Below are positions 929-32,650 of a stretch of 32,807 nucleotides of DNA, piece after piece. The notes below the pieces were generated by a model that was not told where the DNA came from, did not search any database, and saw only the letters and a program-made list of their open reading frames with translations. Location: positions 1 through 32,807 of the forward strand of contig PWVB01000418.1 in NCBI GenBank assembly GCA_003562365.1, written 5' to 3'. The translations under genes were made by a program, and so were the position numbers. This stretch comes from Anaerolineae bacterium. Lineage in GTDB: Bacteria > Chloroflexota > Anaerolineae > B4-G1 > SLSP01. Numbering within the stretch: position 1 is the first letter of the stretch; the number at the start of each line of letters is the position of its first letter.

Positions 929-1011
929 AGATATGGCAACGGTGGCGGGGACGTAAGGGTTTGGACAGGCGCGTGCGGTAGCGGCGTAAGCGCTGGGTAG
1001 TAGCTTGGGTT

Positions 1012-1017
1012 GGGAGG
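1012..1017 (+). promoter_or_regulatory. Ribosome binding site GGGAGG
   Basis: GGGAGG lies 7 nt before ATG 1025 and 4 nt before ATG 1022. It overlaps the in-frame TTG at 1010, so that TTG cannot be the start. The 7-nt spacing favours ATG 1025; ATG 1022 is the alternative. Confidence 0.6.
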
Positions 1018-1024
1018 CGCTATG

Positions 1025-4000: not shown

Positions 4001-4438
4001 AGCAGGCCCAAAGCAGAGCGTGTGGGTGAAGCCCGCGCCGGATTGGGGGTGCCGATCCGGCTGCGCAACCAGGTATTGGGTGCGCTGAATCTGCGTTTTG
4101 AAGAGGATTACGTCGCTCCAGAGACGGTTCAGATGGTAGAGCAGATCGCTGACCGTCTGGCGATTGCATTGGAGAGCGCCAGGTTGCTAGAGACTTCACG
4201 CTGGACAGCTGAGCGAGAGCGGATGGCGCGGGAGATCACCGATCGGCTGCGGGGAACACTGGATTGGGATGAGCTCATGCAGACGGCAGTTAGCGAGATC
4301 GGTGAAGCAGTGGATGCCTCGCGGGTCTTTGTGCAGTGGACGCCGTTGGCAGACGACACACGGTCATCCGACGATGATATACCGACGGAAGGCAATGTGC
4401 TATCACGAGGCGGCGGCGTTGAGGGGGAGGATCTATGA
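1025..4438 (+). CDS. LacI-type ligand-binding domain fused to multiple GAF domains, no DNA-binding or kinase domain
   Basis: A protein of about 1137 aa. Residues about 28-306 form a type-1 periplasmic-binding fold of the LacI/PurR kind: PAVGMLVNSLGDPYTDALV at the start, CANDETAIGVSEVL, then VALVGFDDIDASFRMPASLT and RQPIREIG. There is no N-terminal helix-turn-helix and no signal peptide, so the domain should sense a ligand in the cytoplasm without binding DNA. A helical linker follows (307-440). Then come a degenerate GAF (about 445-592), a GAF-like domain (612-740), a clear GAF (742-903; FDLAYAGLFLVDD, PETRSELALPLISRAKVIGA), a further GAF (927-1055) introduced by QAWREF, and a C-terminal half GAF (1058-1137). 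It is a full-length paralogue of the gene before it. Its stop overlaps the next start as ATGA, indicating translational coupling to the membrane receptor. The ligand is unknown, possibly a sugar or nucleobase as for LacI relatives. Confidence 0.85.
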   Translation: MVKEDHQYQAFDTLGQDLGSRSAEVAPRPAVGMLVNSLGDPYTDALVGGVVDCAASDGFDLLIYVLDGIDDPHSEMGSFGIVHPERHDGLILTGSVAYYGKRSETTLRVFLERIGPLPVVGISLWLPGIPAVNPDSYGGMRKVVEHLLDVHHHRRLGFIEGPAGSPEAEERQRAFHDALEGRGVMPDPALMVAGDFTLEGGRSAMRTLLARGEALEAVVCANDETAIGVSEVLHSRGLRIPDDVALVGFDDIDASFRMPASLTTVRQPIREIGHQAAAELYALIQGGETPGSIVVPTHPVLRRSCGCLPAYVNQISLHKAPSVEPVSFAKERSRIVAALQEAGGSGVDWGELAEAFWHAVHNAESSQCLDILLQLMQDRPPSSDLLPPTGFDNWHAVISELRRSTLPLLSDRDIQVRAEDLFQQARALVSEVQLHAQTYRRRSRQQQEATLQAFSDRLANVVQLSVGAPLISEILSKLRLRRCHLALFEDAGTGARWRDAMYLPFSYVDGAVRLSVEQAPHSVREMLVSELWDQAAAARPAGGLRMALLPLYVGDESLGVGLFEGPAAAVAFYSRLRHVLSGLVHRMRLSESQRAARKEAESARVEADLALRDALAAQRRYAESAWQAVVGGSTSDFVRGYVWTPDGASSDDDAWLPVMSRVAQSGDTILEDDRDNGQMLGVPLTLFGEEIIGSLGFSRSKVDAEDQPGGWTPEQIRLVENVARHVAQALETHRLVSDARRRAARLAAAAEVSSAATSITDLDELLSGAVRLIQARFDLAYAGLFLVDDARRWAVLVAGTGEAGQIMLAREHKLEVGGQSMIGTCIATGEARIAADTALETVWQPNPLLPETRSELALPLISRAKVIGAMTIQDRRSGAFSEEDVTALQTMADQLANAIENARLIAQMARSLRELEVATGRFTGQAWREFIVGQDRRLGFRHRLVDTVPAEDPHPEAAAAIARSEAVVAQLLSGADASAEPGDPAAGSVEGGSRPKAERVGEARAGLGVPIRLRNQVLGALNLRFEEDYVAPETVQMVEQIADRLAIALESARLLETSRWTAERERMAREITDRLRGTLDWDELMQTAVSEIGEAVDASRVFVQWTPLADDTRSSDDDIPTEGNVLSRGGGVEGEDL

Positions 4439-9336: not shown

Positions 9337-9380
9337 TGGCTGCGCTAGGCCGGGACCGCGGATCGCTGCAGGGTGATTGC

Positions 9381-9389
9381 AGGAAGGGG
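9381..9389 (+). promoter_or_regulatory. Ribosome binding site AGGAAGGGG
   Basis: This purine-rich site lies 8 nt before ATG 9398 and fixes that start. The longer frame beginning at TTG 9377 would put the Shine-Dalgarno site inside the coding region. The second ATG, 9401, is 11 nt away. Confidence 0.55.
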
Positions 9390-9397
9390 CAACGACG

Positions 9398-12300: not shown

Positions 12301-15040
12301 GATGCGCTCGGCCGTGGTCTTTCCCTTGATCAGTCGAGGTCAGACACAGGGCGCTGTCACTCTGCAGAGCGGCCGGCGTTTCGCTTTTACAGAGGAGGAC
12401 GTGGCAACGCTGGCGTTGATGATCAACCAGCTGGCAAATGTTATCGAGAGCACTAACCTCTATGAGAGATCGCAAAGCTCATTGGCGGAGACGCGGATGC
12501 TCTATCGGATCGCGCAGCAGATCACCGATGCCCGAGACGCCGAAGCGGTATTGCAAGCGGCGGTAGACGGTATTGCGCAGCGGGACGAGCCGGACTGGAT
12601 CATCGCGGGTTTGTTGACACCCCATCAGGAGCCCACGGCATTGAGTGTGGTCGCCGTGTGGTGTAGGGAGCCGCGGGGAGATGTCGCTCTGACGCTGGCC
12701 TCCTTGGACTTGGTGGACATTCCGCGATTTTATGAAGTACTGCGGTTGGATGAGCGGTTCGTCACGCCGGATATCACACAAGACCCGATGGTTGATGACT
12801 TTCTGCGACGGCTGTTCGGGGACCTCGAGCTGCGGGCGACGGCGGCTTTTCAGCTGCGGGTGCGTGGCAAGCAGTATGGGATGCTGATGGTCCATAGCCG
12901 ACATGCACGGGAGTTTAGTACAGCAGAGTTGAGTTTCTACGAGAACGTAGCGCGCCAGGCCTTTGTGGCGCTCGAGAACCTTAACCTGGTGGAGGTGACC
13001 CGCGAGCTGGCCGAGCGGCGGGCTATCCTCAACGAAGTATTACAGACGGCATCTAGTGCATTGGTCCCGATCACCATCCTGGGCGAAGTGGGAGAGGTGA
13101 TTGCCCGGCGACTTCAGAGGCCGGTGATCATGTGGTCGTGGGAGGCGGAGACCAGTGTAGGAGGGATTGTGCGAGCAGCATCGATGCACGCTTCGGACGG
13201 CGACGCGCTTCTGCCTGACGGTGAGACGTATCGGCTGGGGCGCCACGAGGCTGCGCCGCTCTATGCTGCCATAGATTCAAGGAGCCCGGTGACGCTACAC
13301 CTTGAGAAACAGGCCTGGACGGGAGGATGGCCAGAGCGGTTGGGATCGCCATTGGTTGATGGGTATGCGGTGCCGCTAGTGGCCCGAGCGCGTATCTACG
13401 GCGTGATGATGGTGGCGCGTACGGCAGAACAGGCGGCGGTCAACGAGCGCATCCGAGAGCTGCTGGAGACAGTGGGAGCAAACCTGAGCGTAGCTCTGGA
13501 GACTGCGAGTCTCTACCGGGAGGCGCAAGAGACGGCAGCGAAGCTCCAAGAGGTAGATGAACTGAAGAACCAGTTTATGGCCAATATGTCACACGAGTTA
13601 CGGACACCGCTGAACTCCATCATCGGATTCTCACGTGTGATGCTGAAGGGTATCGATGGGCCTCTGACGGAGATGCAGGAGACGGATCTGACTGCGATCT
13701 ACGACAGTGGACGCCATTTGCTGAATTTGATCAACGACATTCTGGATATCTCCAAGATCAACGCGGGCAAGATGGAGATCGTGTTTGAGCCGGTAGACCT
13801 GAAAGACATGATCACCAGCGTCATGTCGACGGCGCTAGGATTTGTGAAGGACAAGCCGGTGGAGCTGCGGACCTATGTCGCGCCGGACCTACCGATGATT
13901 GTGGCGGATGGACGGCGCATTCGCCAGGTGCTGATAAATCTGTTGGGTAATGCGGGCAAATTTACCGAACAGGGCTTCATCGAGGTTTCAGCAACCTTCG
14001 ACAGCGAGCAGGTTGTCGTCAGCGTGGAAGATAGCGGGATAGGCATTGCACCGGGTCGCCTTCACGCAGTCTTTGAGCAATTTGAGCAGGTGGATGCGAC
14101 GTCCACGCGACGTTACGGGGGAACGGGTTTGGGCATTCCGTTGAGCCGGGAGTTTGTGCGGTTGCATGGTGGCGATATGTGGATCGAGGAAACAACAGTG
14201 GGTAAGGGAACTACCTTCTGCTTTTCGCTACCGATTGGCGGACCGCAGGCAGTGCCGGCCGAAACGGGTGGCGGGCGTGTTGTGTTGACGGTGGACGATG
14301 ATGAAAGCATCGTGATGCTGTTTAGGCGGTTCCTGGCACCGGAAGGGTATCAGGTATTCGGGCTGACTAATAGCGCACAGGTGGTGGCGGAGGCGAAACG
14401 ATTGCGTCCATACGCGATCACTCTGGACGTGTTGATGCCAGGAGAAGACGGATGGGCCACGATCCGCGTGCTGAAGTCAGACCCGGCGACTCGCGACATA
14501 CCGATCATTGTCTGTTCGATCCTGGGAGATCGCGAGAGAGGAATGAGTCTGGGGGTGGCAGATTACTTGGTGAAGCCGATCTCTGAAGATGCGCTTCGAG
14601 CGGCTTTGGTGCGGGTGGGGCGGCAGCGCGAAGATGGAGACGTGCTGGTCGTGGACGACAACAGAGAGGATCGGAAGCTCCTTCGGAGGATCCTGGAAAG
14701 CGCAGGACACGATGTCAGGGAGGCCTCTGGAGGTGCCGAGGCGCTGGAGATATTGCGCTGGGATCCGCCCGCGCTGTTGGTTTTGGACCTGATGATGCCG
14801 CAGGTGGACGGGTTTGCGGTTCTCGAGGCGCTAAAGCAAGACTCCGGCACAAGGACGATTCCCGTGATCGTCGTAACAGCGAAAGATCTCACGAAAAACG
14901 ACGAGGCGCGACTCCAGGAGAGAGCGGAAGCACTGATACAGAAGGGCCTTTTTGATCAACAGCAGTTGCTCACTGATGTTAAGATGGCGCTTGAGCGTCT
15001 TGACAAGCGCCGTCTGGATAACGCGCGTGAGGCTGCTTGA
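9398..15040 (+). CDS. Hybrid sensor histidine kinase: PAS, seven GAF, HisKA, HATPase, two receiver domains
   Basis: A soluble protein of about 1880 aa with no TM segments. A short coiled coil is followed by PAS (35-152; ALIDAIPNPIFYKNTRGVYL) and GAF domains at about 169-349, 371-472, 484-667, 676-856, 861-1024, 1029-1199 and 1204-1376. HisKA is at 1387-1464 with the phospho-acceptor H1399 in MSHELRTPLN. The HATPase (1495-1614) shows an N box (INLLGNAGKFT), a G1 box (VEDSGIGI) and a G2 box (GGTGLGIPLS). Receiver 1 (1626-1742) has acidic DDD, D1677 and the KP lysine (YLVKPIS). Receiver 2 (1748-1867) has DD and D1797, but the usual KP is replaced by an IQKG-type ending. It autophosphorylates on His and should pass phosphate to the attached receivers. 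It is the only catalytic protein of the cluster, 61 nt after the receptor gene and probably co-transcribed. No output domain is attached or encoded nearby. Confidence 0.92.
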   Translation: MMDVGKPRTELIEELRELRERLAQMVSGQAGEQGHFIQALIDAIPNPIFYKNTRGVYLGCNTAFAEKVIGLPRSRIVGATVYELTEAIPLELAEAYHQSDLDLLTSRGSQVYEAPMRFADGSTRQVLFNKAVLEDSSGRVAGMVGILLDVTGRRADEAAWADVAQAAERRSARRQVAAEIAEAAAALLSMEELLSQSVALVQERLGFRCVAVYLLDAAEHLALLRASCAHESEGVGHLERQIVVDRDSVIGAVILNRQLCAISRADNPTFTAPEAFVGASSGKSLDDPPTEDTPEDTVSVVVPLVSRGETLGAVWIEAQEGDLISEDDCTILTTFAGQLAVAIDNARLHERAQANLVALQRLQRRDAVDMWQTYVEEQEVLGYSYDLDEVTKLMVPEQYDVKDLPADPVLDRGREGGDGARLLQPLEIRGEPVGLLSFEAPGAIRDWSDDQLAVLQAVSDQLALALENRLLIDRSQRALREAQQREAELGFLHEISALLNATTDVVAARATLLERLQAFTPINQFTLMSWEAEAARLRFLTAVGVAIIQLESTDQRAGLTASDGCETYVAAAALTAESAFESVAANGTWILREDLRSGAEYPEEEALAAVGVVSRLLLPLRLGRRLLGVLELGSGQVDAFSRPGLLSLLEQVAAQLASALERGNLLRTAQGSAEESRRLYEVTADLAEAVGGSEVLQAVIRHAFPEVPVRAEIGLYTPDPETQAQMTWLEIVASTGESDAVAALAPGTRISAAEIPELALLEDGGLYACADVEADAEVGGAAGITSELRAAYRAEGVRGVLVLALAVGAGAVEQLGVLRVRSGMPLRVTEQDLRLYRTIADQAAVVLSNRRLFEQSQARIARQAVAVELASLTTALSEQDALLQAVVDFLAERFDLYFAGIFLVDGHSEWAVLRAGSGELGERLMLMGHRVQVDGGTMNGRAIQTRQRLVAPDIEPRTALGENPLLAGMRSAVVFPLISRGQTQGAVTLQSGRRFAFTEEDVATLALMINQLANVIESTNLYERSQSSLAETRMLYRIAQQITDARDAEAVLQAAVDGIAQRDEPDWIIAGLLTPHQEPTALSVVAVWCREPRGDVALTLASLDLVDIPRFYEVLRLDERFVTPDITQDPMVDDFLRRLFGDLELRATAAFQLRVRGKQYGMLMVHSRHAREFSTAELSFYENVARQAFVALENLNLVEVTRELAERRAILNEVLQTASSALVPITILGEVGEVIARRLQRPVIMWSWEAETSVGGIVRAASMHASDGDALLPDGETYRLGRHEAAPLYAAIDSRSPVTLHLEKQAWTGGWPERLGSPLVDGYAVPLVARARIYGVMMVARTAEQAAVNERIRELLETVGANLSVALETASLYREAQETAAKLQEVDELKNQFMANMSHELRTPLNSIIGFSRVMLKGIDGPLTEMQETDLTAIYDSGRHLLNLINDILDISKINAGKMEIVFEPVDLKDMITSVMSTALGFVKDKPVELRTYVAPDLPMIVADGRRIRQVLINLLGNAGKFTEQGFIEVSATFDSEQVVVSVEDSGIGIAPGRLHAVFEQFEQVDATSTRRYGGTGLGIPLSREFVRLHGGDMWIEETTVGKGTTFCFSLPIGGPQAVPAETGGGRVVLTVDDDESIVMLFRRFLAPEGYQVFGLTNSAQVVAEAKRLRPYAITLDVLMPGEDGWATIRVLKSDPATRDIPIIVCSILGDRERGMSLGVADYLVKPISEDALRAALVRVGRQREDGDVLVVDDNREDRKLLRRILESAGHDVREASGGAEALEILRWDPPALLVLDLMMPQVDGFAVLEALKQDSGTRTIPVIVVTAKDLTKNDEARLQERAEALIQKGLFDQQQLLTDVKMALERLDKRRLDNAREAA

Positions 15041-19523: not shown

Positions 19524-22500
19524 TCAGGGATGTGTCACCGGTAGGGTGAGGGTGACTCGATTATCGCTGACGAGCGCATCGTCAGCTCCTGTGACCGTGA
19601 GACGATTCATAGTCTCGGGGATATACCATCCGACCGCAAGGTGGTAGGTTCCCTGTGGAGCTCCAGACATGCTCAGTTTGACGGTCTCGCTGACCACCTC
19701 TCCTTTCAGCCACCATGTGGTTGGGTAGGTCCAACCTCGCGGTGCGCCATCCTCCTGTGCGACAATCTCCTCGGTTTCTGGATCGTAGAGGTGTACGAAG
19801 CGCGTGTAGTCGAGCTCCGGTGTCTGCAATGCTTGCCACCATACCGTGAGTCGCACTTCCTGAGCTTTCTGATCCTCTGAAAGTGCATAGCCTAGCAACT
19901 TTACGCTATTGCCAAAGACGGCAGTCTGAGGATGAGGTACCGACGGTATGTCGAAAGATCGGGGGCTCGATTGCACAGTTACAGTTGTCAGCACACCACA
20001 GTCGGTTAGCTTCCCCTCGGCGCCTGCCATTGACAACGTGAGCTCATAGTCACCCTCGGGTACGCGCGGCGGAAGCGCCAGTCTCACGGGCGAGAGAACC
20101 CAAGTGTGGCGAGGCCACAATGAGGTCGGGCTTCCCGGTGCCAACGGGCTCGTGGTAGAAACGACAGCAGCACCATAGGGATCGATCAGCGACCAGGTTG
20201 CCCGGAGGTCGTCAGCAGGTACCAGCTGCGCCGACCATTCAGCTTGTAAATACAGGGTGTCGACTTCTTGGACCACCGAAGGGGCTTCCAGCCCGAGCAA
20301 TACCACGCCTTCCGCTTGGCAGAGGATCGTGGCGCCCTTACGGTTCAGTTCGCAGCAGGCCTTGCGTAGGTCATAGAGGGTTGGCAGGGTTACCTGAATG
20401 GGGATGTCGACTTCACCACCACCTTCCATCGAATTCTGAAGGTAAGCCACGACTCTCAGCGTATAGGCTCCAGGCGCGAGGCCATTAGGGAGGGCGAGAT
20501 GCGGATTATCCACAATCCGTTCCTCAGGGTGCCAGAGCGTGGTGGGCAGATAACCGTAACCCGGCTGTGCATCCTGTTGGACCCGCAGGTTGCCATCTAG
20601 ATCGAGGAGCCTGAGTGAGAGTCGCCAGTTCCTCGGCGTGCCTGGTGTGGACCAGATCATCCTAAGTGGCAGTGTGTCTGGCTCAGTCTGCCGAGTCTCG
20701 ACGGAGTGCAGTGTCATATCCTTCAACACAGCCAGCGGTGGTGACGAGGGCGGCTTGGCAAATGCTTGCGATATGCGCAAGCTTCCCACGTAGAGCGGAC
20801 CCATAGCGCTGCCGGCTTCGGTGTGTGCTCGGAGCTCACCATCGGGACTGTGCAGGCGCAGCTGTAGCAGATAGAGACCTCGAGACAAATCGTCAGGCAG
20901 GGAAAGCAGTAACCTGGTCTGAGACGACACTGGTGCAGAGATCTCAGCGATACCTTGCTTGATACCGTGGCGTGGCTCAGCAGGAGAGACGAGGCGAAGG
21001 GTTGCAGTGAGGGGCTCGGCGGTTCTCATCTCGAATCCGAGCACCGTCTCGAGCTTCTGGCCAGGTCCCGTGGCAGTCTGGGTTACATCTGCGGACACTG
21101 CAGATACCAAGAGGGCCTCTCCGAACTCGATTGGGCCCTGATGAGGGTAGGGCATCTGTTGGAAGTCAAAAAAGACTGCGGGCGAATCAGGTGTCTTCTG
21201 CAACAGGATTGGACCAACTAGCGCGAGCAATAGGCAGCTAAGCGCAGCGCCGGCTATCCTAACCATGCCGCGAGCCATCGTACGTCGATACGCTTCCGAT
21301 CCAATAGTGACACCCAACGCAAGTAGGCCCACGGTGGTGGAGACGCCGATGGCCAGCTGCTGGAGTGGCGTTGCTCGCAGGCGTAAGTCTACTGTCCAGA
21401 TACCGGGCTCCAGTTTGATACCCAGCCACCCGGAGCCGGGAAGCGGATAGGAATCGACCGGTATCCCCTTCACCACTGCTTGCCAGCCGGGCCACCAGTG
21501 CACGGGGAAAGCAACAGAAGCCGCGTGATAGCGTAGATCGACGTGCCAGATCTGATGGTGAGGAGAGCGTGCTGCCAGCTGGGCGATCAGCTCCGCGTCC
21601 CCATCGGCGATGGGCTGTCCTTCTCCATCAATAACTGCGTCGGAGATATATGGCCGGGGCACGACGTCTCGGGGTAACCACTCATGACGGATGGTGGTAC
21701 CTATATTGCCAGTGAAAGCCTCGTAGAACAGCAGGTTCTCCCAGGTGACCGCGTGCGAATTGATGCGAAGGCGATCGGGGCGGAGGGTCATCAGGGCCGC
21801 GCCAATGACCAGCACGGCGCCGATGCTGCCAAGTACGTGGTTCAAAGCGCGCCTGATTGACAGCGGGATCTTTGTCGGCCACCAAGCTAGCTCTGCGACG
21901 GCACCGCTCAGGGCCGCAGTGAAGAGAGCCTGAACCGAGAGGAAGCGCCAAGGGAACTGAGTTATCTCCAGGAGAGGCAGAGTATCCCAGAAGGGCCTCG
22001 AGAGCGACGTAATCATAACCGATGCCAATGCTGCGCCGGCGAGCAAAAACCACTGTCGGCGTCGATCATACTGGGCGATGTCGCGCGGCACTTGCGCTCG
22101 CTTCAGCAGATGGCTGACTAGCACGGTGGCGCCGGCAAGCGCGACGGTGACCTGGGCCAGGCCTGCAGCGAAGGGTCCAGCTTCGTGCACTGTGACCGCT
22201 ACGCTGTAGTCGAAGAACAGCGAGGGTTGGATTAGGTCAAGTCCGCGGAAGTGACTGGTGTAGTGGAAGTAATCCTCGGTGAAGGCCGGACCCAGCTGCA
22301 CATAATCTGTCTCCATCACAGCGGGTATCCAGAACCAGGCGCTGAGCAAGATGCCGACAGCGAAGACCCCGATCACAGCGAGGAACCCCCGCTTTCTAAG
22401 AACGTTCAGCGAGTCGCGGTAGTGTTGTCTAAGTGGCGGTGCGATGATGATCAGACCATAGAGCAATGCAAAAGGCGAGAAGATCAGTGCCGACACGTTG

Positions 22501-23123
22501 TGCGTCAGGATAAGTGCTCCGTAGGAAAGCCCGCCTCCGAGAACTGCCGGTGGATTGGGTCGTTCAGCAACCCGATCGAGACTCCACAAGATGAGCGGAT
22601 ACCAGACAAAAGCGTAGAACTCTGACAGCGAGTCGCCCCGGACGTAGACGTTAACCAGGTGAAAGGGAGCAAAGGTGTAGGCCGCCACGGCCAGCAGTTG
22701 GGCCGCGCGGCTTCTGAAAATGCGCCGTGACCAGAGGCCCATAGTCACGGCAGCGAACAGGAAGCCGAGAGTCTGGGTGGTCTGGATCGCCGAAAGGATG
22801 TTAACGCCCAGGACCGTCAGAGCGCCGCTCACATAGTAGGGTAGGGCAGCGTAGTGGTTGAAGAAAGGATAGCCCAAGCCGTAAGCGGCGTGCGACATCC
22901 AGCGCGGGGGGAGGACACCGTGGCGGAGCGTCTCAGCCATCTCCATCGTTCGTTGAAGGAGAAAGGGGCTGTCGCCACCCCCGCGAGTGTTGACTATGCC
23001 CGGTCCCCAGAGCGGTGCGGCCGCCAGCAGAGCAAGGAGTACCGCTGCGGCCCAGAACAGGGCTTGCGAGCGCTCTAGGTCGCACCGTCGCTGGCAATGG
23101 GATCGCGCGCGGTCTGGCCTCAT
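19524..23123 (-). CDS. Large GT-C-like membrane protein (PTPS-related family) with repeated beta-sandwich ectodomains
   Basis: A 1199-aa integral membrane protein. Residues about 20-440 carry many hydrophobic helices. The first extracytoplasmic loop contains RGGGDSPFLLQRTMEMAETL (D51) followed by GVLPPRWMSHAAYGLGYPFF. This is characteristic of the family named 6-pyruvoyl-tetrahydropterin-synthase-related, a misleading name for GT-C-like proteins. An outside domain spans about 445-590, further TM helices about 591-650, and then roughly four beta-sandwich modules at about 665-785, 800-910, 935-1060 and 1069-1199. The last reads DYTRFVHLYDPETEEIVAQ, PTTWWLKGEVV, GTYHLAVGWY. It probably transfers sugars from a lipid carrier, or handles a glycan, at the outer membrane face. 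It starts at ATG 23123, overlapping the previous stop by 4 nt. Catalysis is not proven from sequence. Confidence 0.78.
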   Translation of the reverse strand: MRPDRARSHCQRRCDLERSQALFWAAAVLLALLAAAPLWGPGIVNTRGGGDSPFLLQRTMEMAETLRHGVLPPRWMSHAAYGLGYPFFNHYAALPYYVSGALTVLGVNILSAIQTTQTLGFLFAAVTMGLWSRRIFRSRAAQLLAVAAYTFAPFHLVNVYVRGDSLSEFYAFVWYPLILWSLDRVAERPNPPAVLGGGLSYGALILTHNVSALIFSPFALLYGLIIIAPPLRQHYRDSLNVLRKRGFLAVIGVFAVGILLSAWFWIPAVMETDYVQLGPAFTEDYFHYTSHFRGLDLIQPSLFFDYSVAVTVHEAGPFAAGLAQVTVALAGATVLVSHLLKRAQVPRDIAQYDRRRQWFLLAGAALASVMITSLSRPFWDTLPLLEITQFPWRFLSVQALFTAALSGAVAELAWWPTKIPLSIRRALNHVLGSIGAVLVIGAALMTLRPDRLRINSHAVTWENLLFYEAFTGNIGTTIRHEWLPRDVVPRPYISDAVIDGEGQPIADGDAELIAQLAARSPHHQIWHVDLRYHAASVAFPVHWWPGWQAVVKGIPVDSYPLPGSGWLGIKLEPGIWTVDLRLRATPLQQLAIGVSTTVGLLALGVTIGSEAYRRTMARGMVRIAGAALSCLLLALVGPILLQKTPDSPAVFFDFQQMPYPHQGPIEFGEALLVSAVSADVTQTATGPGQKLETVLGFEMRTAEPLTATLRLVSPAEPRHGIKQGIAEISAPVSSQTRLLLSLPDDLSRGLYLLQLRLHSPDGELRAHTEAGSAMGPLYVGSLRISQAFAKPPSSPPLAVLKDMTLHSVETRQTEPDTLPLRMIWSTPGTPRNWRLSLRLLDLDGNLRVQQDAQPGYGYLPTTLWHPEERIVDNPHLALPNGLAPGAYTLRVVAYLQNSMEGGGEVDIPIQVTLPTLYDLRKACCELNRKGATILCQAEGVVLLGLEAPSVVQEVDTLYLQAEWSAQLVPADDLRATWSLIDPYGAAVVSTTSPLAPGSPTSLWPRHTWVLSPVRLALPPRVPEGDYELTLSMAGAEGKLTDCGVLTTVTVQSSPRSFDIPSVPHPQTAVFGNSVKLLGYALSEDQKAQEVRLTVWWQALQTPELDYTRFVHLYDPETEEIVAQEDGAPRGWTYPTTWWLKGEVVSETVKLSMSGAPQGTYHLAVGWYIPETMNRLTVTGADDALVSDNRVTLTLPVTHP

Positions 23124-25195
23124 GGATTCGTCACAATCACGGGTATCTCGAAGGCGTCGGCAATCGGGTGGCCTGCCGCATCCAACCGGGCCAGGCCTTC
23201 GCCGGTTTCTGGGTCGTAGAAACCGAGGCGCAACGTGTCGTCAGCCAGCACGCGCTCAACCCCCGGCAGGGGATGTTCGTCAAGAATCAGGTCGCCCGGC
23301 TGCCAGAAGGTGGTGCGCAGGTGGCCGAATCCCGGCTGCCGTTCATCCTGGGCAATACGTTCGCCATTTCGCTGATAATGCACAAAGACCGTATAGTCGT
23401 AGTTGATGGGTATGGTGGTCTCCCACCATAGTAGTGCCGTTACACTGGAGCGGTCGTCAACCCGCACCAAAGCGGCTCTCAAGAGTATTCCGTTTTCAAA
23501 TCGGGCGATTGGATCAGGGACCGGTGGGACCGTGCTGGCGCTGACGAGCATCGCGATGGTGAATGGGGCGGGATCTAGGTCCCCTTGCGCTGCCGGTCCG
23601 CGGCTGATGTGCAGGTAGGCTGGACGTGGGAGGTAGGGGAGCACGTCAGGTTCCCAATCACGATAGGGCCAGACCGCAAAGTGGACAGGACCATCCACAC
23701 CTGTGCCTTCCTGAACGGGCAGGAAGGCGACAGCTGACTCGGGCACCAGAAAGGGAATGGACTCCCATTCGTCCCAAAGCTGCTGGTCCAAGAAGATCCT
23801 CAGCTCTTGATCGGCCCCGTGTCGCATGCGGGCACCATCCCATCCCTGATTCCGGGCGAAATTGAGCTGTTCTGCCAAATTGGCAGGCCCAGCCTCAAAC
23901 CAATGGTGGGTAAGGGACGAGGAGGGATAGCGGAAGAAATAGTCAATAACCGTGCTGGATAGCCCGCCGATCAACAGAAGCAGCGGCAGAGCCCTTACGC
24001 CAAGTCTCCCCCACCGGCTGGCTGGTGAAAGCCGGCCTCGCCCGACTCGATGAAGTCCGCGAGACAGCCACCTGAGACCAAGGGCCGGGATGAGCGCTGC
24101 CGTGGGTAGTACACCGACGCCACGGAGGAAGTGAGGAGCATCCTCGGCAAGCAAGGTGGGCAGCGTCATCACGGTGGTCCAGAGCAGAATGACGGCAACT
24201 GGTGGATCTCGCCTGAATCGGACTAGTGTCAGCCCTAAGCCCACAAGAAACGCCAGCCCCAGCGCCGGATCCCAGACAGGTCGGAGGGAGAGATTGTGAC
24301 GCCAAATGCGATCGCCTCTCACGACGAACATCGCCGCGGTGTCGCGGGCGTGTCGGGCTAGGGTTGGCCAGAAGCGACCGCTGTGGATATGCTCACTGAA
24401 TACGGAAACCTGTCCGCTACGAGCTAGGACGACCGTCGGATGAGCCAGGGTGTAGAGTCCTAGAGGAAGGAGGGTCAGCAGGGCAGCGGCGGCGGCCAAG
24501 GAGGCTCCGCGCAACGCCTTGAGCAGCTGTCGGCGATCATACCAGAGACCATAGATCAAGACCGCAGCAAGAGCGATCGGGGTGAACCTGGCCGCCATGT
24601 AAGTATACCAGCTGGCTCCATAGAGCACACCGGCAGCCAGCCAATGCCCGGCTCGGCCGCTGCGAACTCCTTTGGCACCCTGCCATAGATAGCTGGCAGT
24701 GAGGAGCGGCAGCAAGACAGCCCGAAACGCGACGCGGCTCAGGTGAACGTGCCAGAATGTAACAGCCATTACAGCCAATGCCCACTTACCGCTCCGACGC
24801 CCCAACAGCGTCTGCGTCAGCGCATAGGTGGTCGCTAAGGTTAGAACGCCTGTAAAGAAAGATGGGATCCGCACCGCCATAGGGGTGCGGCCCAAGACCC
24901 CAACGGCGAAAGCGACTAGATAGATGAACAGTGGTTCACGACCGTTGTTTGCCTCGAAATAGAGCGGAAAACGTCCGGTCAGGACACTAAGTGCATCCAG
25001 ACCATTCTGTGCTTCGTCGTGATATAGTCCAGGTGGAACACTACCTATGCCCGGCAAGCGTAGCGCTGTACCCAGAAGGAGCAAAGCCAGAAGGACCAGA
25101 CGCTCTCGCCAGAAGACCGCATGCAGTGGCGGTGATGCAGCGCTATCATGATTATTGTCCAGGCCTGACTCTGAATCCGCGAATCTCATCTGCAA
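23120..25195 (-). CDS. GT-C glycosyltransferase of the ArnT/PMT (GT39/GT83-like) type
   Basis: A 691-aa polytopic membrane protein. After a short cytoplasmic N-terminus and TM1 (about 33-48), the first outside loop holds the GT-C acidic motif PPGLYHDEAQNG (D60, E61). About ten more hydrophobic helices run to about 430. Such enzymes use polyprenyl-phosphate-linked sugars as donors on the outer membrane face. The C-terminal part (about 563-691) is a beta-sandwich module (YDYTVFVHYQRNGERIAQ, TTFWQPGDLI) shared with the next gene. TTG 25195 is used because AGGGAG stands 7 nt upstream; ATG 25189 is the alternative but is 13 nt from that site. It begins 2 nt after the isopentenyl phosphate kinase stop and overlaps the following gene by 4 nt. 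Acceptor and sugar are unknown. Confidence 0.85.
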   Translation of the reverse strand: MQMRFADSESGLDNNHDSAASPPLHAVFWRERLVLLALLLLGTALRLPGIGSVPPGLYHDEAQNGLDALSVLTGRFPLYFEANNGREPLFIYLVAFAVGVLGRTPMAVRIPSFFTGVLTLATTYALTQTLLGRRSGKWALAVMAVTFWHVHLSRVAFRAVLLPLLTASYLWQGAKGVRSGRAGHWLAAGVLYGASWYTYMAARFTPIALAAVLIYGLWYDRRQLLKALRGASLAAAAALLTLLPLGLYTLAHPTVVLARSGQVSVFSEHIHSGRFWPTLARHARDTAAMFVVRGDRIWRHNLSLRPVWDPALGLAFLVGLGLTLVRFRRDPPVAVILLWTTVMTLPTLLAEDAPHFLRGVGVLPTAALIPALGLRWLSRGLHRVGRGRLSPASRWGRLGVRALPLLLLIGGLSSTVIDYFFRYPSSSLTHHWFEAGPANLAEQLNFARNQGWDGARMRHGADQELRIFLDQQLWDEWESIPFLVPESAVAFLPVQEGTGVDGPVHFAVWPYRDWEPDVLPYLPRPAYLHISRGPAAQGDLDPAPFTIAMLVSASTVPPVPDPIARFENGILLRAALVRVDDRSSVTALLWWETTIPINYDYTVFVHYQRNGERIAQDERQPGFGHLRTTFWQPGDLILDEHPLPGVERVLADDTLRLGFYDPETGEGLARLDAAGHPIADAFEIPVIVTNP

Positions 25196-25197
25196 TG

Positions 25198-26010
25198 TCA
25201 GGCTCCCTCCGAATCGGCGCAGATCAGTGTGCCTTTGCTGAAGTTGGCTGGATCGAGGAGGGCTTTCTCAAGATTACCCGGTTCGGCACCTGTCAAAATT
25301 CTCACCCGCAGATCGGGACGATTCTCCACCAGAGCCAGCATCCGCTCGACTTTGTCTGCCATGCCGCCAGTCACGTCTGTGTAACCGGAACGCCGCAGAT
25401 GCGTCCGGATCATCGGCAGTCGTCGTGGCGTGATCAGCGGCACCAGCTGGTGGTTGCCGTCCAGTACCCCGGGGGCGTTACCTAGAAGGAAGATCCAATC
25501 GGGTTGGAGGCGCTCAGCCAGATAGACAAAGATGTCCTCGGTGGAGAGAATAGTGCCGCCGAGACGAGCGTCAAATGTCACGTCGCCGAAGACAAGCGGC
25601 ACCAGTCCGTGGGCAAGCGCACGGCGCAGTGGATCAAGCTCGAATCGGATAAGGACACCGTCATCGGCCAGGGCCGATGCAGAAGGCTGCAGGCTGAGCA
25701 GCGGGACTTCTGCGTCGATGAAGCTATCCACGACCAGCCGATTGAGCTGGAGTGCTGCTGCGCTTACTTTTGCAAAGCCTCCCCATTGAGCTGGCGTTGT
25801 CACTCCTTTGTGGGTAGCATGCTGGCTGGCCTCCCAATGGCCGAAAGAGCCCGACCCGTGACCCAAGACGACCTGAAGCATGGGGTCGGCTCTACGGGCT
25901 CTGCTGAGCTCGCCAGCAAGCCGTTTCAGGACATCGGGACGCGGAGTCAATCGTCGGCGCTTGTCCGTGATCAAGGATCCGCCGAGCTTCACATAGTAGA
26001 GCCTGCTCAC
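25198..26010 (-). CDS. ipk: Isopentenyl phosphate kinase
   Basis: A 270-aa amino-acid-kinase-fold enzyme phosphorylating isopentenyl phosphate to isopentenyl diphosphate with ATP, the last step of the archaeal-type mevalonate branch. Features are YVKLGGSLIT (K8) at the N-terminus and GHGSGSFGHWEASQH with H58 matching the catalytic substrate-binding His of known IPKs. LVFGDVTFD, ILSTEDIFVYLAERL, the LLGNAPGVLD segment and TDVTGGMADKVERML follow. The GSGSFGH form separates it from acetylglutamate and UMP kinases. GTG 26010 is used, with AAAGG 8 nt upstream. It lies 55 nt after mevalonate kinase. Roseiflexus-type Chloroflexota are known to use phosphomevalonate decarboxylase plus IPK; the decarboxylase is not in this window. 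Confidence 0.93.
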   Translation of the reverse strand: MSRLYYVKLGGSLITDKRRRLTPRPDVLKRLAGELSRARRADPMLQVVLGHGSGSFGHWEASQHATHKGVTTPAQWGGFAKVSAAALQLNRLVVDSFIDAEVPLLSLQPSASALADDGVLIRFELDPLRRALAHGLVPLVFGDVTFDARLGGTILSTEDIFVYLAERLQPDWIFLLGNAPGVLDGNHQLVPLITPRRLPMIRTHLRRSGYTDVTGGMADKVERMLALVENRPDLRVRILTGAEPGNLEKALLDPANFSKGTLICADSEGA

Positions 26011-26065
26011 TTCCTATGCCTTTCCCCATACGCGCAGGTACCAGGGTGCGGTTGGCTTAGCTGAG

Positions 26066-27016
26066 TCAAGCATTCCGTAATCCTAAGTGAGTCTGCCAAA
26101 GGTGGACCGCTCCAGCGGCGGTCAGTGCCTCTACCACTGCGGGTAGTCTGCTCTCTTCCACCAAAGCGATGATATTGCCGCCTTGCCCAGATCCTGTCAA
26201 TTTGGCGCCCAAGGCGCCGGCGCTGCGCGCCGCGAGCGTCAAGGTGTCGAGTTGCGAGAGTGACACTCCCATTTTCATTAGAAGTTCATGATTCTCATTG
26301 AGAAGCGTGCCCAGTGCCGGTAGCGCGCCCTGCTCGATGGCTGCTCGTGCAGCTCGCACTATGGCTCCGATGCAGTTGAAGATGACGTTATAATAGTCAG
26401 GGGCGGCCATCCAACGGCGTCGGACCCCGGTGATTGCTGTACGGCTGGAACTGGCGATGCCGCTATTGGCAATCACGAGGTGAAAGGGTGACCGAATGCT
26501 GAAGATCTCAGGCGGGGACCCTTTCACAAAGTAGACTGGTTGCTCCCAAGCAATGACAGTGTTGTCTATGCCGCTGGGTGTGCCGTGGTGGATCTTCTCG
26601 ACTTCGTAGGTGAGCTCGCTAACAATGGTAGGGGAAAGTTCCACACCAAGGGCGGCGCTTAAGGCGCGCACAGTGGCGGCGGTGATCGCTGCACCGCTAC
26701 CCATTCCGGAGCCGATGGGCAAGTCGGATTTTAGGGTGAGGGTGGCGTCCGGTTCGTCCTCTCCCAGATAGTCCAGTACTAGATCGACGGTTTGCTTGAG
26801 GGGATTCCCGTCGCGCAGATCGCGGTAGGCAAATTCCCGGTGTAGGTCGAGCGCTATGATTTGCATTCCCTCACCGCAAGCGGTTGGCCTAATCTCTGCT
26901 CGAGCGCGTCTATCGCTCACCGGCAGGGCGATGGCGGGCTGACCGTAGACGACGCTATGTTCGCCGCAGAGGATCACCTTCCCGGTAGCCGTACGCTCAG
27001 TCGCTCTTATTTTCAT
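26066..27016 (-). CDS. mvk: Mevalonate kinase
   Basis: A 316-aa GHMP-family kinase that converts mevalonate to 5-phosphomevalonate. Visible motifs are GKVILCGEHSVVYGQPAIA (K13, E19, H20), the ATP-binding PIGSGMGSGAA (100-110), EKIHHGTPSGIDN with the catalytic base D151, and the third GHMP motif GAKLTGSGQGGN near the C-terminus. Length and motifs fit mevalonate kinase better than phosphomevalonate kinase or galactokinase. ATG 27016 starts 7 nt after the prenyltransferase stop, so it belongs to the same transcript. It feeds the isopentenyl phosphate kinase encoded next. Confidence 0.95.
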   Translation of the reverse strand: MKIRATERTATGKVILCGEHSVVYGQPAIALPVSDRRARAEIRPTACGEGMQIIALDLHREFAYRDLRDGNPLKQTVDLVLDYLGEDEPDATLTLKSDLPIGSGMGSGAAITAATVRALSAALGVELSPTIVSELTYEVEKIHHGTPSGIDNTVIAWEQPVYFVKGSPPEIFSIRSPFHLVIANSGIASSSRTAITGVRRRWMAAPDYYNVIFNCIGAIVRAARAAIEQGALPALGTLLNENHELLMKMGVSLSQLDTLTLAARSAGALGAKLTGSGQGGNIIALVEESRLPAVVEALTAAGAVHLWQTHLGLRNA

Positions 27017-27023
27017 CGGGACA

Positions 27024-27899
27024 TCAGCGTAGGTACATAATAGCCACGACCGTAAAGCCCCATAGGAAGATATTGGCTTGAGAGGGAAGGTCGGTCAACA
27101 AGACCTCATCAGGGGCAAGGGTGCACTGCTCGGCATGGATAAGGTACATATAACGAAAGAGGCCATAGATCACGAAGGGGATGGTGAGCATCATTGCGTG
27201 GTTCTCCGGCAGGTTGGTCGCCGAAAAGGTGTAAAGAGCATAGGCCAAGATCGTAGAGGAGGTGACGATGGTGATCAGTTGATCCAGCAGGGGCAGTGTA
27301 TACGCCCTAAGGGTGGGGCGGTGGTTCCCGGCCTTGCCCTTAAGAGCGATCAGCTCCCCACGACGCTTCGAGAGACCTAAAAAAAGCGCCAACAGTGTCG
27401 TGCAGATGTAGAGCCAGGGCGAAAAGCGCTCCGCCTGCACCAAGGGCACACCGGCCCCGACGCGCAGAACAAAGCCCGTCGCGATGGCAAGTATATCGAT
27501 TAGGACGATATGCTTTAAAGCAAAGGAGTAGCTGATCTGGAGAACCAGGTAGCCCGCTAAGATCAACGCAAATCCCCATTCAAGCAAGACCGCGGCTATG
27601 AGCGAACCTGCCGCGATGCCGGTGGCCGCGACGATGGCAAGGCGTGGTGAAAGCGCGCCAGAGGCTAGGGGGCGCTGCCGTTTTCTGGGGTGCTGTCGAT
27701 CCTTGTCTAGATCAACGACGTCGTTAATTGTGTAGACGACGCCGGAGACCAAGCAAAACAGGATAAAGCCTGCCACAGTCCTGAGCAGATAAGGAACCCT
27801 GAACAGCTTGATATCAAAGACCAGGGCTGCAAAGATGATGGCGTTCTTCGTCCACTGGTGCGGGCGCATCGTCTTGAGAAACGCAAGCAGAACTGTCAC
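27024..27899 (-). CDS. UbiA-family prenyltransferase, polyprenyl-phosphate phosphoribosyltransferase type
   Basis: A 291-aa protein with about eight or nine TM helices. It begins KTMRPHQWTKNAIIFAALVF, typical of decaprenyl-phosphate phosphoribosyltransferases (Rv3806c type) in the UbiA superfamily. The first Asp-rich motif is NDVVDLDKD (N59, D60, D63, D67), followed by HPRKRQRPLASG. The second conserved region is HIVLIDILAIATGFVLR, and LFLGLSKRRGEL follows. Such enzymes join PRPP to a polyprenyl phosphate, giving lipid-linked phosphoribose, the precursor of arabinofuranosyl or ribofuranosyl donors. Other UbiA reactions remain possible. It is the first gene of the five-gene unit. GTG 27899 is used; an internal ATG (codon 11) would cut off the conserved start. 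It has a good promoter about 50-80 nt upstream. Confidence 0.87.
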   Translation of the reverse strand: MTVLLAFLKTMRPHQWTKNAIIFAALVFDIKLFRVPYLLRTVAGFILFCLVSGVVYTINDVVDLDKDRQHPRKRQRPLASGALSPRLAIVAATGIAAGSLIAAVLLEWGFALILAGYLVLQISYSFALKHIVLIDILAIATGFVLRVGAGVPLVQAERFSPWLYICTTLLALFLGLSKRRGELIALKGKAGNHRPTLRAYTLPLLDQLITIVTSSTILAYALYTFSATNLPENHAMMLTIPFVIYGLFRYMYLIHAEQCTLAPDEVLLTDLPSQANIFLWGFTVVAIMYLR

Positions 27900-27949: not shown

Positions 27950-27977
27950 ATCATAGCGCGTTCACGGAGTTTGACAA
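27950..27977 (-). promoter_or_regulatory. Promoter of the prenyltransferase-led operon
   Basis: On the - strand: -35 TTGTCA (27977-27972), a 16-nt spacer and -10 TATGAT (27955-27950). The predicted start near 27943 gives a leader of about 43 nt. The -35 box overlaps that of a + strand promoter on the opposite strand. Confidence 0.6.
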
Positions 27978-27998
27978 CTCCCGGCAGGTGTGTATACT
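27971..27998 (+). promoter_or_regulatory. Distal + strand promoter (P1) upstream of rpoC
   Basis: Perfect -35 TTGACA (27971-27976), a 16-nt spacer and -10 TATACT (27993-27998), with a predicted start near 28005. It could drive a separate short RNA or a long rpoC leader of about 325 nt. Confidence 0.6.
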
Positions 27999-28032
27999 GG
28001 GCATAGTTGGCTGAACAAGAGGTCACATAAGT

Positions 28033-28107
28033 ATGCTGATCTCTACGGAGGCGTCAGTGTGGGCTGAAAGACGCGACGGTGGGGCCGTTAGAGGATCAGA
28101 ACGATAA
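28033..28107 (+). CDS. Possible 24-aa leader peptide
   Basis: ATG 28033 to TAA 28105-28107, with AAGAGG 10 nt upstream and promoter P1 in front. The peptide begins MLISTEASVWAERRDGG and has one Trp and several Arg residues, but no run of regulatory codons. The hairpin T-tract follows 24 nt after the stop. Very short frames occur by chance, and this one overlaps the candidate RNA helices. Confidence 0.2.
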   Translation: MLISTEASVWAERRDGGAVRGSER

Positions 28108-28130
28108 GTGAGGCAGGCAGACGATTCCAT

Positions 28131-28163
28131 AACCTGCGGTGAGACTATCTCCTCGGGGGTTTT
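28131..28163 (+). terminator. Imperfect hairpin with T-tract after the candidate small RNA
   Basis: The stem pairs AACCT with GGGTT, CGG with TCG and GAG with CTC around the loop ACTAT, with two mismatches and G-T pairs. It runs into TTTT (28160-28163). It could end P1 transcripts before the second promoter. Confidence 0.4.
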
Positions 28164-28187
28164 GTGCTGCCTGTCGGTCGTTTGTGG

Positions 28188-28215
28188 TTGACTTCTGGGG
28201 GCTATCGGCTATAAT
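28188..28215 (+). promoter_or_regulatory. Proximal rpoC promoter (P2)
   Basis: -35 TTGACT (28188-28193), a 16-nt spacer and perfect -10 TATAAT (28210-28215). The predicted start near 28222 leaves a leader of about 109 nt before rpoC. A palindrome CTGTGTCACAG lies just after the start and could be an operator. Confidence 0.75.
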
Positions 28216-28251
28216 GCGTTGAACTGTGTCACAGATCAAGGCCGGAAAAAA

Positions 28252-28292
28252 GAGCACTGAGATCCACATCTGCTCAGCTGCTCCTTTTATTT
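28252..28292 (+). terminator. Attenuator-like hairpin in the rpoC leader
   Basis: GAGCACTGAG (28252-28261) pairs with CTCAG-C-TGCTC (28273-28283) with one bulged C and an 11-nt loop. CTTTTATTT follows (28284-28292). It looks like an intrinsic terminator between promoter P2 and the rpoC start, so it may attenuate rpoC transcription. Confidence 0.5.
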
Positions 28293-28330
28293 CTAAGGCT
28301 GCTTGAGAGCAATCCGCTAGGGGAGGAAGC

Positions 28331-31300
28331 ATGAACCGAGATGAACGGGTGACCGAAGCACGCACGTTTAAGGTTCTCCGTATCAGCCTGGCTTCACCGG
28401 ATGACATTCTTTCTTGGTCGTATGGTGAGGTCACCAAGCCTGAGACGATCAACTACCGCCGACTGCGTCCTGAAAAAGACGGACTCTTCTGTGAAGCGAT
28501 CTTTGGCCCGTCGCGCGACTATCAGTGTTATTGTGGCAAGTATAAGGGCATTCGATATCGTGGCATCATCTGCGACAAGTGTGGTGTGGAGGTCACGCGT
28601 TCTTCGGTCCGCCGCGAGCGCATGGGGCACATCACTCTGGCTGCACCGGTCGCACATATATGGTACACACGTCGGATTCCCAGCCATTTGAGTGTGGTCC
28701 TGGATCTAAGCAAACGAAACCTGGACCGGGTTCTCTATTTCGCTCAGTACATTGTCATTTCGGTTGATGAGGATGCTCGTCAGCGAGCGTTGAAGCGCAT
28801 TGACGAAGAGGAAAACGCGCGTGTGACAAGGATGGAAGAGGCTGCTACAGCGCGCATTGATGAGTTGGAGGGCCGGGTTACTGAGCGGCAGGAGAAGTTT
28901 GAAGCCGCACAGGAAAAGCTCAAGGCGCAGCTGGAGGAAGAGCTGAACAGCCGTACTGAGAAGATTCTTGGTGAGGCGCGGCGTCTCCAGGATCGCCTTG
29001 AGGGGATGATGGGGCGTGCCACCAGTGACCCCATCTTATTCAGCCCGACGGACACAGTCATTGTGGACGCTGATGAGGTGATCAGCCGCGACCATTACGC
29101 TGTGCTGAACACTGTCGCACAGGACGCATTGGACACCTTGGAATCAGAGATCCGCCAGCGGGAGACCGACGCGCTGAGCCCTGTAGAACAGAGGGTTGAG
29201 GCACAGGCTGAGGATACTCAGGTCTCGGTGACGCAGGTAGATGAGGAGTTAGCCGAGAAGGTCAACATCATCCGCACGCATTACGGCGATCTGCGCGAAG
29301 AGCTCCTGGGACTGGCCGAACTGCAATTCTTTAATGAGCAGCGGTACCGTGAGCTGCGTCAGCGCTGGGGGCAGGTGTTCAAAGCCGGGATGGGCGCTGA
29401 AGCCGTATATGAGTTGCTCCGGGGCCTAGATCTGGAAGAGGTCTCGGAGAAGCTGTGGCACGAAGTGCGGTACGGTCGCTCGGCCCAACGACGTAAGCGG
29501 GCCACGCGACGCCTGCGGGTGGTGGAGGCTTTGCGAAAAAGCCGCAACAATTCAGAGTGGATGATCCTGACAGTGCTGCCCGTCCTGCCACCGGAGCTCC
29601 GCCCGATGGTGCAGTTGGATGGAGGGCGTTTTGCCACCTCGGATCTCAACGATCTCTATCGACGAGTAATCAACCGCAACAACCGCCTTAAGCGTTTGCT
29701 GGAGTTGGGGGCGCCTGAGGTGATTGTCAATAACGAGAAGCGTATGCTTCAGGAGGCCGTCGACAGCCTCATTGATAACAGCCAGCGCGGGAAGGCGATG
29801 AGCCGCCGCGGACGCCGTCAGTTGAAGTCGCTGAGCGATATGCTTAAGGGTAAGAAAGGTCGGTTCCGCCGAAACTTGCTGGGTAAGCGGGTAGACTACT
29901 CTGGACGTTCAGTGATCGTGGTTGGACCGGCTTTGCAGATGCATCAGTGTGGACTGCCAAAGACGATGGCACTGGAGCTTTACCGCCCTTTCATCATTCA
30001 GCGTCTGGTGGAGTATAATTACGCGACCAACGTGAAGGCTGCCAAGCGCTTGATTGAGCGCCAGCGCCCTGAGGTATGGGAGGTGTTGGAAGAGGTTATC
30101 TCCGATCGACCTGTGATGCTTAACCGGGCGCCGACTCTGCACCGTCTAGGCATTCAGGCATTTGAGCCGGTACTGGTTGAAGGGAAAGCTATTCAGCTGC
30201 ATCCGCTGGTCTGTTCTGCTTTCAATGCCGACTTCGACGGTGATCAGATGGCTGTGCACGTGCCGCTCTCCCGAAAAGCTGTTGAGGAGGCCCGTAAGCT
30301 TATGTTGGCGACTCGCAATCTCCTCAAGCCAGCGGATGGCCAGCCGATCGTGGGGCCGTCAAAAGATATGTGTATGGGCATCTACTATATGACGATGGAT
30401 ATGGAGTCCGACAACGGCGATGACAAGGTCTTTGCCGATCTGAACGAGATAGAGATGGCGTATGCGCTGGGTAGGGTCGGTCTGCACGCCAAAATCAAGG
30501 TGGCGCAGGTCTACGACGATCGTACTGCACCGGACGAACCGGTTACGACCACGGTTGGTCGGGCGCTGTTCAACCGCATCGTTCCTGATCCGTTGCGCTA
30601 CATTAACCATCCCCTGGACAAGGGCGAGCTGCAGGACCTTATCGCGCTCTGTTACCGGAAAATGGGTGAGGAGGTCACCGTCGAGTTTGCCGATGCCATC
30701 AAGTCTATGGGCTTTGAGTATGCCACTATCTCCGGCGTGACGATCTCAGTCTTCGACCTCACGGTTCCGGAAGACAAGACTCGGATTCTCGAAGGGGCAA
30801 CCAGTGAGGTCTCTGAGATAGAGCGCCAGTATCGGCGTGGCCTTCTGACCGAGGAGGAACAGTATAATCGGACGATTGAAATCTGGTCACGAGCACGGGA
30901 TTCTGTGTCCAAAGCTGTGGCCAATCAGCTCGATCCCTATGGCCCAATCTCGATCATGGCGAAGTCGGGCGCGTCCAAAGGCGGATTCGGCCCGGTGTCG
31001 CAGCTTTCGGGCATGCGAGGCTTGATGGCCGATCCTTCGGGTCGGATTATCCCGCTGCCGATCCGTTCCAATTTGCGTGAAGGATTGACGGCGTTGGAGT
31101 ACTTCATCTCCACCCACGGCTCACGTAAAGGTCTGGCAGACACGGCGTTGCGCACAGCGGATGCTGGCTATCTAACTCGGCGTCTGGTAGATACCGTTCA
31201 AGACATCATCGTGAACGCCCAAGACTGCGGGACGCGGGCTGGCATCTGGATCCGCCGGACGGACAACGTTGGTGGCCAGTCGATAATCTCTCGGCTGTTG

Positions 31301-32650
31301 GGGCGCATAGCGGCATCGCCGATTGTTCATCCGGAAACAGGTGAGGTTCTAGTAGACCGCGATGAGGAGATTGACGAAGACTGGGCCGAAGTGATTGATC
31401 GACTTGGCATCGAAGAGGTCTACGTGCGCTCCCCGATGACCTGTGAGTTGGAGCACGGCATCTGTCGCCTCTGTTATGGTCGCGACCTAGGCCGTGGTGG
31501 GCTGGTGAAGATCGGCACCGCGGTGGGTATTATTTCCGCACAGTCGATCGGGGAGCCGGGAACGCAGCTGACGCTGCGCACATTCCATACCGGAGGTACG
31601 GCTACTTCGAGTGGTGACATCACCAGCGGCCTGCCCCGTGTTGAGGAGTTACTGGAAGCAAGGAAGTCTCCCAAAGGTGAGGCTGAGATCGCCGATCTTA
31701 GCGGTGTGGTTCACATCACTCGTCAGGGTGACCTGGCAGAAGTGACCATCGTGGACAGTCAAGTTAAGAAGGTCAGTTATGACATTCCCGAAGATTGGGA
31801 GATCTTCGTGGAGGATGGTGACGAGGTGGACCAAGAGGACGTGCTAGCTCGTGGCGAGGCGGATGAGGGCGAGCAAGAGTTGCGCGCCAAATCATCTGGT
31901 CGGATCAGTCGTGATGATCGCGACATCGTGCTGATCTATGAGATCAGTGAGGAGCAAACGTACGCGGTACCACCTTCAGCGAGATTGCTGGTGGCCGAGG
32001 GACAGGAGATTCCCGCTGGGACTCAGCTCTATGAAGGTGTGCCGAACCCGCATCGGATTCTCGAGGTGCAGGGTCGGGAGGCTGTGCAGTTGCACCTCTT
32101 GAATGAAGTCCAGCAGGTATATCGAACTCAGGGTGTTAACATCGCGGACAAGCACTTCGAGGTCATCATCCGCCGGATGCTGAATCGGGTGTTGGTGACG
32201 GAGTCTGGTGACACAGAGTTCTTACCGGGAGACCTTGCCGATCGCGTGCATTTTGAACGCACGAATAGGGAGCTTGTGGAACAAGGCAAGACGCCGGCCC
32301 GGGCGCGCCAGGTACTATTGGGACTGACTAAGGCCTCGCTCGCATCGGAGTCATTCCTGTCAGCCGCTTCCTTCCAGCACACAATTAAGATCCTCTCGAA
32401 TGCCGCAGTGAGTTCTTCGGAGGATCCGTTGTACGGTCTGAAGGAGAACGTCATCATCGGCAAGCTAATACCTGCAGGTACTGGGTACCGCGGCGATGTT
32501 GAAGGGGCAGACGGTCCGATCGAGGAATACGAGGGGGTGCGGATTGAGGGGGATCAGCCAAAGGGCACCTTGCTTAGCGAGATGGAAGAAGAGCCTGAGT
32601 CACTGCTGCTCTCTGACCTTCAACAGCCATTTCGGCTGGAGCCCATCTGA
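28331..32650 (+). CDS. rpoC: DNA-directed RNA polymerase subunit beta'
   Basis: A 1439-aa catalytic subunit. The N-terminal zinc site is C66, C68, C81, C84 ([17 protein letters not shown]). The active-site Mg loop is [12 protein letters not shown] with D634, D636 and D638. The second zinc site is C966, C1038, C1045, C1048 ([20 protein letters not shown]). The trigger-loop region is [18 protein letters not shown]. Residues about 149-335 form a charged, coiled-coil-rich insertion ([31 protein letters not shown]) between [13 protein letters not shown] and the clamp segment [17 protein letters not shown] 28331 has GGGAGG just upstream (4-nt spacing). rpoB is not adjacent; the upstream neighbour is divergent. 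Transcription is likely from promoter P2 through an attenuator-like hairpin, and a strong terminator follows the stop. Confidence 0.98.

Follow-up and report, generated by a model that had tools for sequence, protein, structure and literature searches.

The window analyzed here is the whole 32,807 nt stretch of DNA, which is one 32.8 kb contig of a fragmented Anaerolineae assembly (4.99 Mb in 570 contigs). Near its right end lies rpoC, which encodes the RNA polymerase β′ subunit according to TIGR02386; its start had been placed at 28331 by the first-pass annotation, and this position was borne out. The region upstream of rpoC carries two promoters, P1 and P2, and the following features.

27950-27977, minus strand: divergent promoter-like site TTGTCA-16-TATGAT (10/12) for the ubiA-type gene at 27024-27899
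27971-27998, plus strand: P1, second upstream promoter TTGACA-16-TATACT (11/12), genus-specific
28112-28175, plus strand: structure 1, a long bulged stem GGCAGGCAG (28112-28120)/CTGCCTGTC (28167-28175) that holds hairpin 1
28188-28215, plus strand: P2, sigma-70-type rpoC promoter TTGACT-16-TATAAT (11/12 consensus match)
28226-28306, plus strand: possible, weakly supported leader ORF of 26 codons, from a GTG 10 bases after the P2 -10 box through hairpin 2
28252-28283, plus strand: hairpin 2 (fold z -2.7; alignment A1; 39.5-bit match to covariance model R1, the window being among its 29 sequences)
28252-28256/28279-28283, plus strand: lower stem of hairpin 2, GAGCA/TGCTC
28257-28261/28273-28277, plus strand: upper stem of hairpin 2, CTGAG/CTCAG, with the loop at 28262-28272
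28278, plus strand: one-base bulge (C) on the 3′ side of hairpin 2
28284-28293, plus strand: T-rich tail CTTTTATTTC after hairpin 2, from T content and A1 columns
28320-28329, plus strand: Shine-Dalgarno-like GGGGAGGAAG before rpoC, from sequence; the relatives have G-rich ribosome-binding sites
28331-32650, plus strand: rpoC (TIGR02386, 1683 bits; 1439 aa)

The divergently oriented genes at 25198-27899 (minus strand) comprise a mevalonate kinase (TIGR00549) adjoining an isopentenyl phosphate kinase (NF040647) and a decaprenyl-phosphate phosphoribosyltransferase/UbiA-type gene. Together they resemble an archaeal-type module for the alternative mevalonate pathway, here in a member of the Chloroflexota. 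Elsewhere in the window, a 1199-aa protein without a Pfam match (19524-23123) is encoded beside a 691-aa PMT_2-type protein (the two together at 19524-25195, minus strand), and three consecutive very large signalling proteins of 1142, 1633 and 1887 aa (1010-15040, plus strand) contain periplasmic-binding-protein-like, HAMP, multiple GAF, histidine kinase and receiver domains. The window yielded no tRNA and no Rfam family at gathering score, only weak chance-like matches.

Bacteria usually make β and β′ from one transcript, which keeps both in step. We surveyed 40 relatives and 296 genomes of the class, for the most part metagenome assemblies, by anchoring upstream regions with the RpoC N-terminus, and read 114 upstream regions of rpoC; promoters and transcription starts are inferred from sequence throughout. 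The named relatives found by the N-terminus search are Anaerolineae and Thermoflexia/Thermoflexales MAGs. In the source genome, rpoB was first located with a generic probe, and the genome's own rpoB was used as the probe afterwards; it sits on another contig (G000:C490) with a promoter of its own, as most of the family has TTGACG-16-TATAAT in front of rpoB. Of the named loci, only those of Dehalococcoidia, Ktedonobacteria-type and other groups have rpoB in front of rpoC, and these rpoB-linked loci are without an R1 match. No such linkage was found in loci L046-L095, some of which are on short contigs. In Anaerolineae, rpoC has thus apparently left the usual rpoB-rpoC operon and is preceded by a predicted promoter of its own. 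In several Anaerolineae families (L051, L053, L090 and similar loci), what by eye is the coding end of a XerC/D-like tyrosine recombinase abuts rpoC, seemingly without a P2-hairpin leader.

P1 and P2 had been proposed as promoters at exactly these places and are the two best of six promoter-like sites in 1.4 kb, where shuffled sequences give 0.8. P1 is kept as TTGACAAC...GTATACT in all three congeners whose contig extends there (G001, G002 and G003). The -35 box of the divergent site overlaps that of P1, and its ATCATA core is also kept in the congeners. Structure 1, which ends 12 bases before P2, folds at -32.2 (z -3.5) in the window and at z -3.5 to -5.9 over all five genus members, the pair counts of these five sequences not exceeding those of shuffles. 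Model R2, built from the genus members, matched strongly only to the genus members, and strong R2 and pattern matches fell only at rpoC of this genus, so that structure 1 was rejected as a repeat or a regulon element.

The first-pass annotation had read the region as two successive promoter-hairpin modules, the first of which would yield a terminated RNA about 160 nt long. The TTTT at the end of hairpin 1 is replaced by TTAG, TTAG, TTATTG and TAAAG in the congeners, and together with hairpin 1 it lies inside the longer, genus-only stem 28112-28175; we therefore rejected hairpin 1 as an intrinsic terminator, and the short RNA is not supported. Transcription from P1 most likely continues into rpoC, giving a longer leader. 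What remains of the two modules is the one formed by P2 and hairpin 2, the only one seen elsewhere, while P1 and structure 1 stand side by side in this genus only. Hairpin 2 had further been called the stronger of the two, which does not hold for folding energy (28252-28292, -13.8 kcal/mol, versus -15.2 kcal/mol for hairpin 1 at 28131-28163) but does in that it is more unlike its own shuffles (z -2.7 versus -2.0). Hairpin 2 is bulged, the T-tracts of both hairpins are short or interrupted, and a generic terminator scan of this region flagged neither.

About 85% of the order's genera, and several Anaerolineae families outside it, have P2 and hairpin 2 in front of rpoC. Almost all rpoC leaders of the order have TTGAC[AT]-16/17-TATAAT in the position of P2, followed after a variable spacer of 20-45 bases by a hairpin of the GAAGCGC-TGAG...CTCA-n-GCGCTTC-TTTTGTG type. 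rpoC was found in 38 relatives, and in 34 of them the rpoC leader was the best match to covariance model R1, built from 29 rpoC leaders; as most of these relatives supplied sequences to the model, this mainly shows that no other genomic place competes. We therefore also used an independent detector, which allows any bulge of 0-2 bases on either side and takes the 95% shuffle level as the threshold. By this measure, 89% of the order loci and 61% of the promoter-bearing class loci have a hairpin after the promoter, although the class hits L201, L220, L221 and L239 may be chance.

The detector forces stem pairs to be complementary, whereas the order alignment A1 does not. In A1, 88% of the cells are paired, compared with 29-54% in a slid-pair control, and 6 of the 12 pairs have changed on both sides; pair changes at the order level exceed shuffles only modestly, with kinship not removed. 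Class-wide, the stem letters are highly variable (AAGCGC, AGAGCG, GGCGC, CAGCGC and others). The T content of the 8 bases after the leader hairpins is 0.60, compared with 0.23 further downstream, the tail being partly a selection criterion, and T reaches 0.83-1.00 in A1 columns 46-49. The first-pass annotation had counted a lack of hairpin conservation against its reading; P2 and hairpin 2 recur across the order and in some other families of the class.

The most distinctive trait of these hairpins is a single-base bulge on the 3′ side, present in 48 of the 62 rpoC-leader hairpins versus 3 of 44 shuffles and 6 of 49 terminator-like hairpins taken from intergenic regions in 400 kb of genomes of the order. 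Kinship among the sequences was handled crudely, by counting genera and families: with one vote per genus, the 3′ bulge occurs in 19 of 23 hairpin-bearing order genera (p about 1e-8), and outside the order in 6 of 10 hairpin-bearing class families (p = 0.003). The architecture of hairpin 2 is seen in 19 of the 27 order genera and in 6 further families of the class. A conserved promoter, hairpin, bulge and tail are therefore present at rpoC genes that are separated from rpoB. It is highly improbable that the hairpin is a constitutive relic or a chance structure without a regulatory role: it went undetected in congener G002 and in roughly every second promoter-bearing family of the class, as such a reading would have it, but the hairpins stand far above shuffles and their architecture is unlike that of ordinary terminators.

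We consider it reasonably probable that the P2-driven rpoC leader holds, in this bulged hairpin and its T-rich tract, a partial intrinsic terminator, i.e. an attenuator. The hairpin followed by the T-tract lies between the promoter and the gene start, and it is the preferred fold of the full leader, with a median pair probability of 0.91. Eight of the weaker R1 matches were read, and most of them, lying between genes or close to a tmRNA-like sequence for instance, resemble ordinary intrinsic terminators with the same TTTTTGTG-type tail; hairpin 2 thus looks like a terminator of this clade. By an approximate re-implementation of the d'Aubenton-Carafa formula, which is E. coli-trained, the order leaders have a median score of -6.5 versus +9.8 for 20 ordinary clade terminators (p = 0.0003), as expected for a leaky attenuator. 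Since most leaders score below zero by this approximate formula, there may be little termination, and the hairpin may instead cause pausing or have some other role. The lack of a detected hairpin in G002 and in about half the promoter-bearing families of the class also weighs against an attenuator. An unsystematic reading of the leaders revealed no conserved antiterminator pairing.

The low scores would also suit a protein-binding or processing/stability element that acts on translation or decay of the rpoC mRNA rather than on termination, with an RNA polymerase subunit, a ribosomal protein or an RNase as candidate binders. The conserved bulge and the partly conserved stem AGCGCTGAG...CTCA-n-GCGCTT, unusual for a plain terminator, point in the same direction. 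We regard such an element as rather unlikely, since conservation extends to the T-rich tail that immediately follows the stem, a tail similar to that of ordinary clade terminators, and since any of the four bases can be bulged (A17 T14 C7 G5). A leaky terminator is the simplest fit for the rpoC-leader hairpin.

The suggestion of the first-pass annotation that rpoC may be controlled by attenuation thus gains support from the conserved promoter, bulged hairpin and T-rich tail. As an attenuator, the leader would work as follows. Transcription of rpoC from P2 would begin with a leader roughly 110 nt long, and about 30 nt into it RNA polymerase would meet the bulged hairpin and T-rich tract, which would act as a weak intrinsic terminator. 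Some transcripts would stop near 28290 and the remainder would continue into rpoC, so that read-through would set the dose of β′, rpoC no longer sharing a transcript with rpoB. The hairpin would then probably throttle the amount of β′ made, and the attenuator could be a feedback point that senses the supply of RNA polymerase or of an elongation factor. Termination at hairpin 2, its partial extent and any regulation of it are what we infer from the conserved sequence features.

The leaders of family f1 have a further trait close to P2. An ATG lies 9-12 bases after the -10 box in 19 of 22 rpoC loci of this family, the window having GTG at 10, compared with 1 of 35 control sites, which were other strong promoter-like sites from the clade. 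This rpoC-specific ATG/GTG may be the start of a leader ORF or a conserved start-site sequence. In the former case, a near-leaderless ORF starting 3-4 nt into the P2 transcript would enter the hairpin, and a translating ribosome would keep the terminator open, such that rpoC transcription would track translation capacity. The frame is open up to the hairpin in all 17 f1 cases with ATG/GTG and a detected hairpin, and leaderless short ORFs are known as attenuators in mycobacteria, according to the passage of PMC13236596 that cites Canestrari 2020. We nevertheless find such translation-coupled attenuation very unlikely: neither the peptide nor the frame through the hairpin is conserved among the f1 loci, the other two frames are often open too (26/34), and the start is absent from two other family members and occurs in only 7/24 loci in the rest of the order (16/38 in the class). 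No conserved codon run was seen by eye, and an amino-acid-specific leader peptide was rejected on this ground.

The rpoB leaders were compared with those of rpoC. In genera g11, g2 and g3, they contain a GAAGCGG...CCGCTTC hairpin with a T-rich tail, the outer stem of which resembles the rpoC-leader stems of the order; g6 has a different hairpin, and none is evident in most other genera. The rpoB leader was therefore rejected as a general carrier of the rpoC-type element. These hairpins hint at a control common to rpoB and rpoC. It is quite unlikely that a common bulged leader attenuator coordinates the separated rpoB and rpoC in trans, with a shared factor, or translation of the near-leaderless ORF, tuning rpoC read-through. 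As further observations, the rpoB leaders of genus g9 (L283, L285 and L290) carry tandem short repeats of the CACCCACCGTCAGGTGGG type, and the rpoB promoters of the order (L273-L313) have a recurring GTTCG/ATTCG-like sequence about 4-9 bases past the -10 box, which differs from the ATG at rpoC.

This large clade keeps rpoB and rpoC apart, and its rpoC genes mostly have the same type of predicted leaky stop signal. If the attenuator works, it offers a natural test of the β/β′ balance and of how RNA polymerase supply is sensed, as well as a searchable RNA element that is absent from Rfam. The literature searched contained no description of this element, nor of an rpoC leader in the clade. In the same Anaerolineae genomes, ordinary intrinsic terminators likewise consist of a stem and a T-rich, often TTTTTGTG-type tail, but they are located at gene ends, score better, and have unbulged perfect stems in 27/49 and a 3′ bulge in only 6/49 cases. 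Likeness to the following systems was judged by their descriptions, not by sequence comparison. The E. coli rplL-rpoB attenuator in the rplKAJL-rpoBC operon is leaky according to the passages of PMC1242208 that cite Barry 1980 and Steward and Linn 1992 (also Newman 1982, as cited in a passage of PMC6181997); the same passages mention a proposed autogenous control by read-through before rpoBC (PMC1242208) and stimulation of read-through by rifampicin (PMC6181997). The cyanobacterial rpoBC leader (cluster 245) has a predicted conserved structure, the predicted counterpart of the E. coli attenuator (PMC1242208). The Anaerolineae element resembles this leader as a predicted conserved structure in front of an RNA polymerase gene, and differs in that the cyanobacterial one leads an rpoBC operon. 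It shares with the E. coli attenuator a leaky terminator, here predicted, just upstream of a large RNA polymerase subunit gene. However, the E. coli attenuator lies between ribosomal protein genes and rpoB within one operon, whereas the Anaerolineae element is found not between rplL and rpoB but in the leader of a stand-alone rpoC, in another phylum, with its own promoter and a conserved bulged hairpin.
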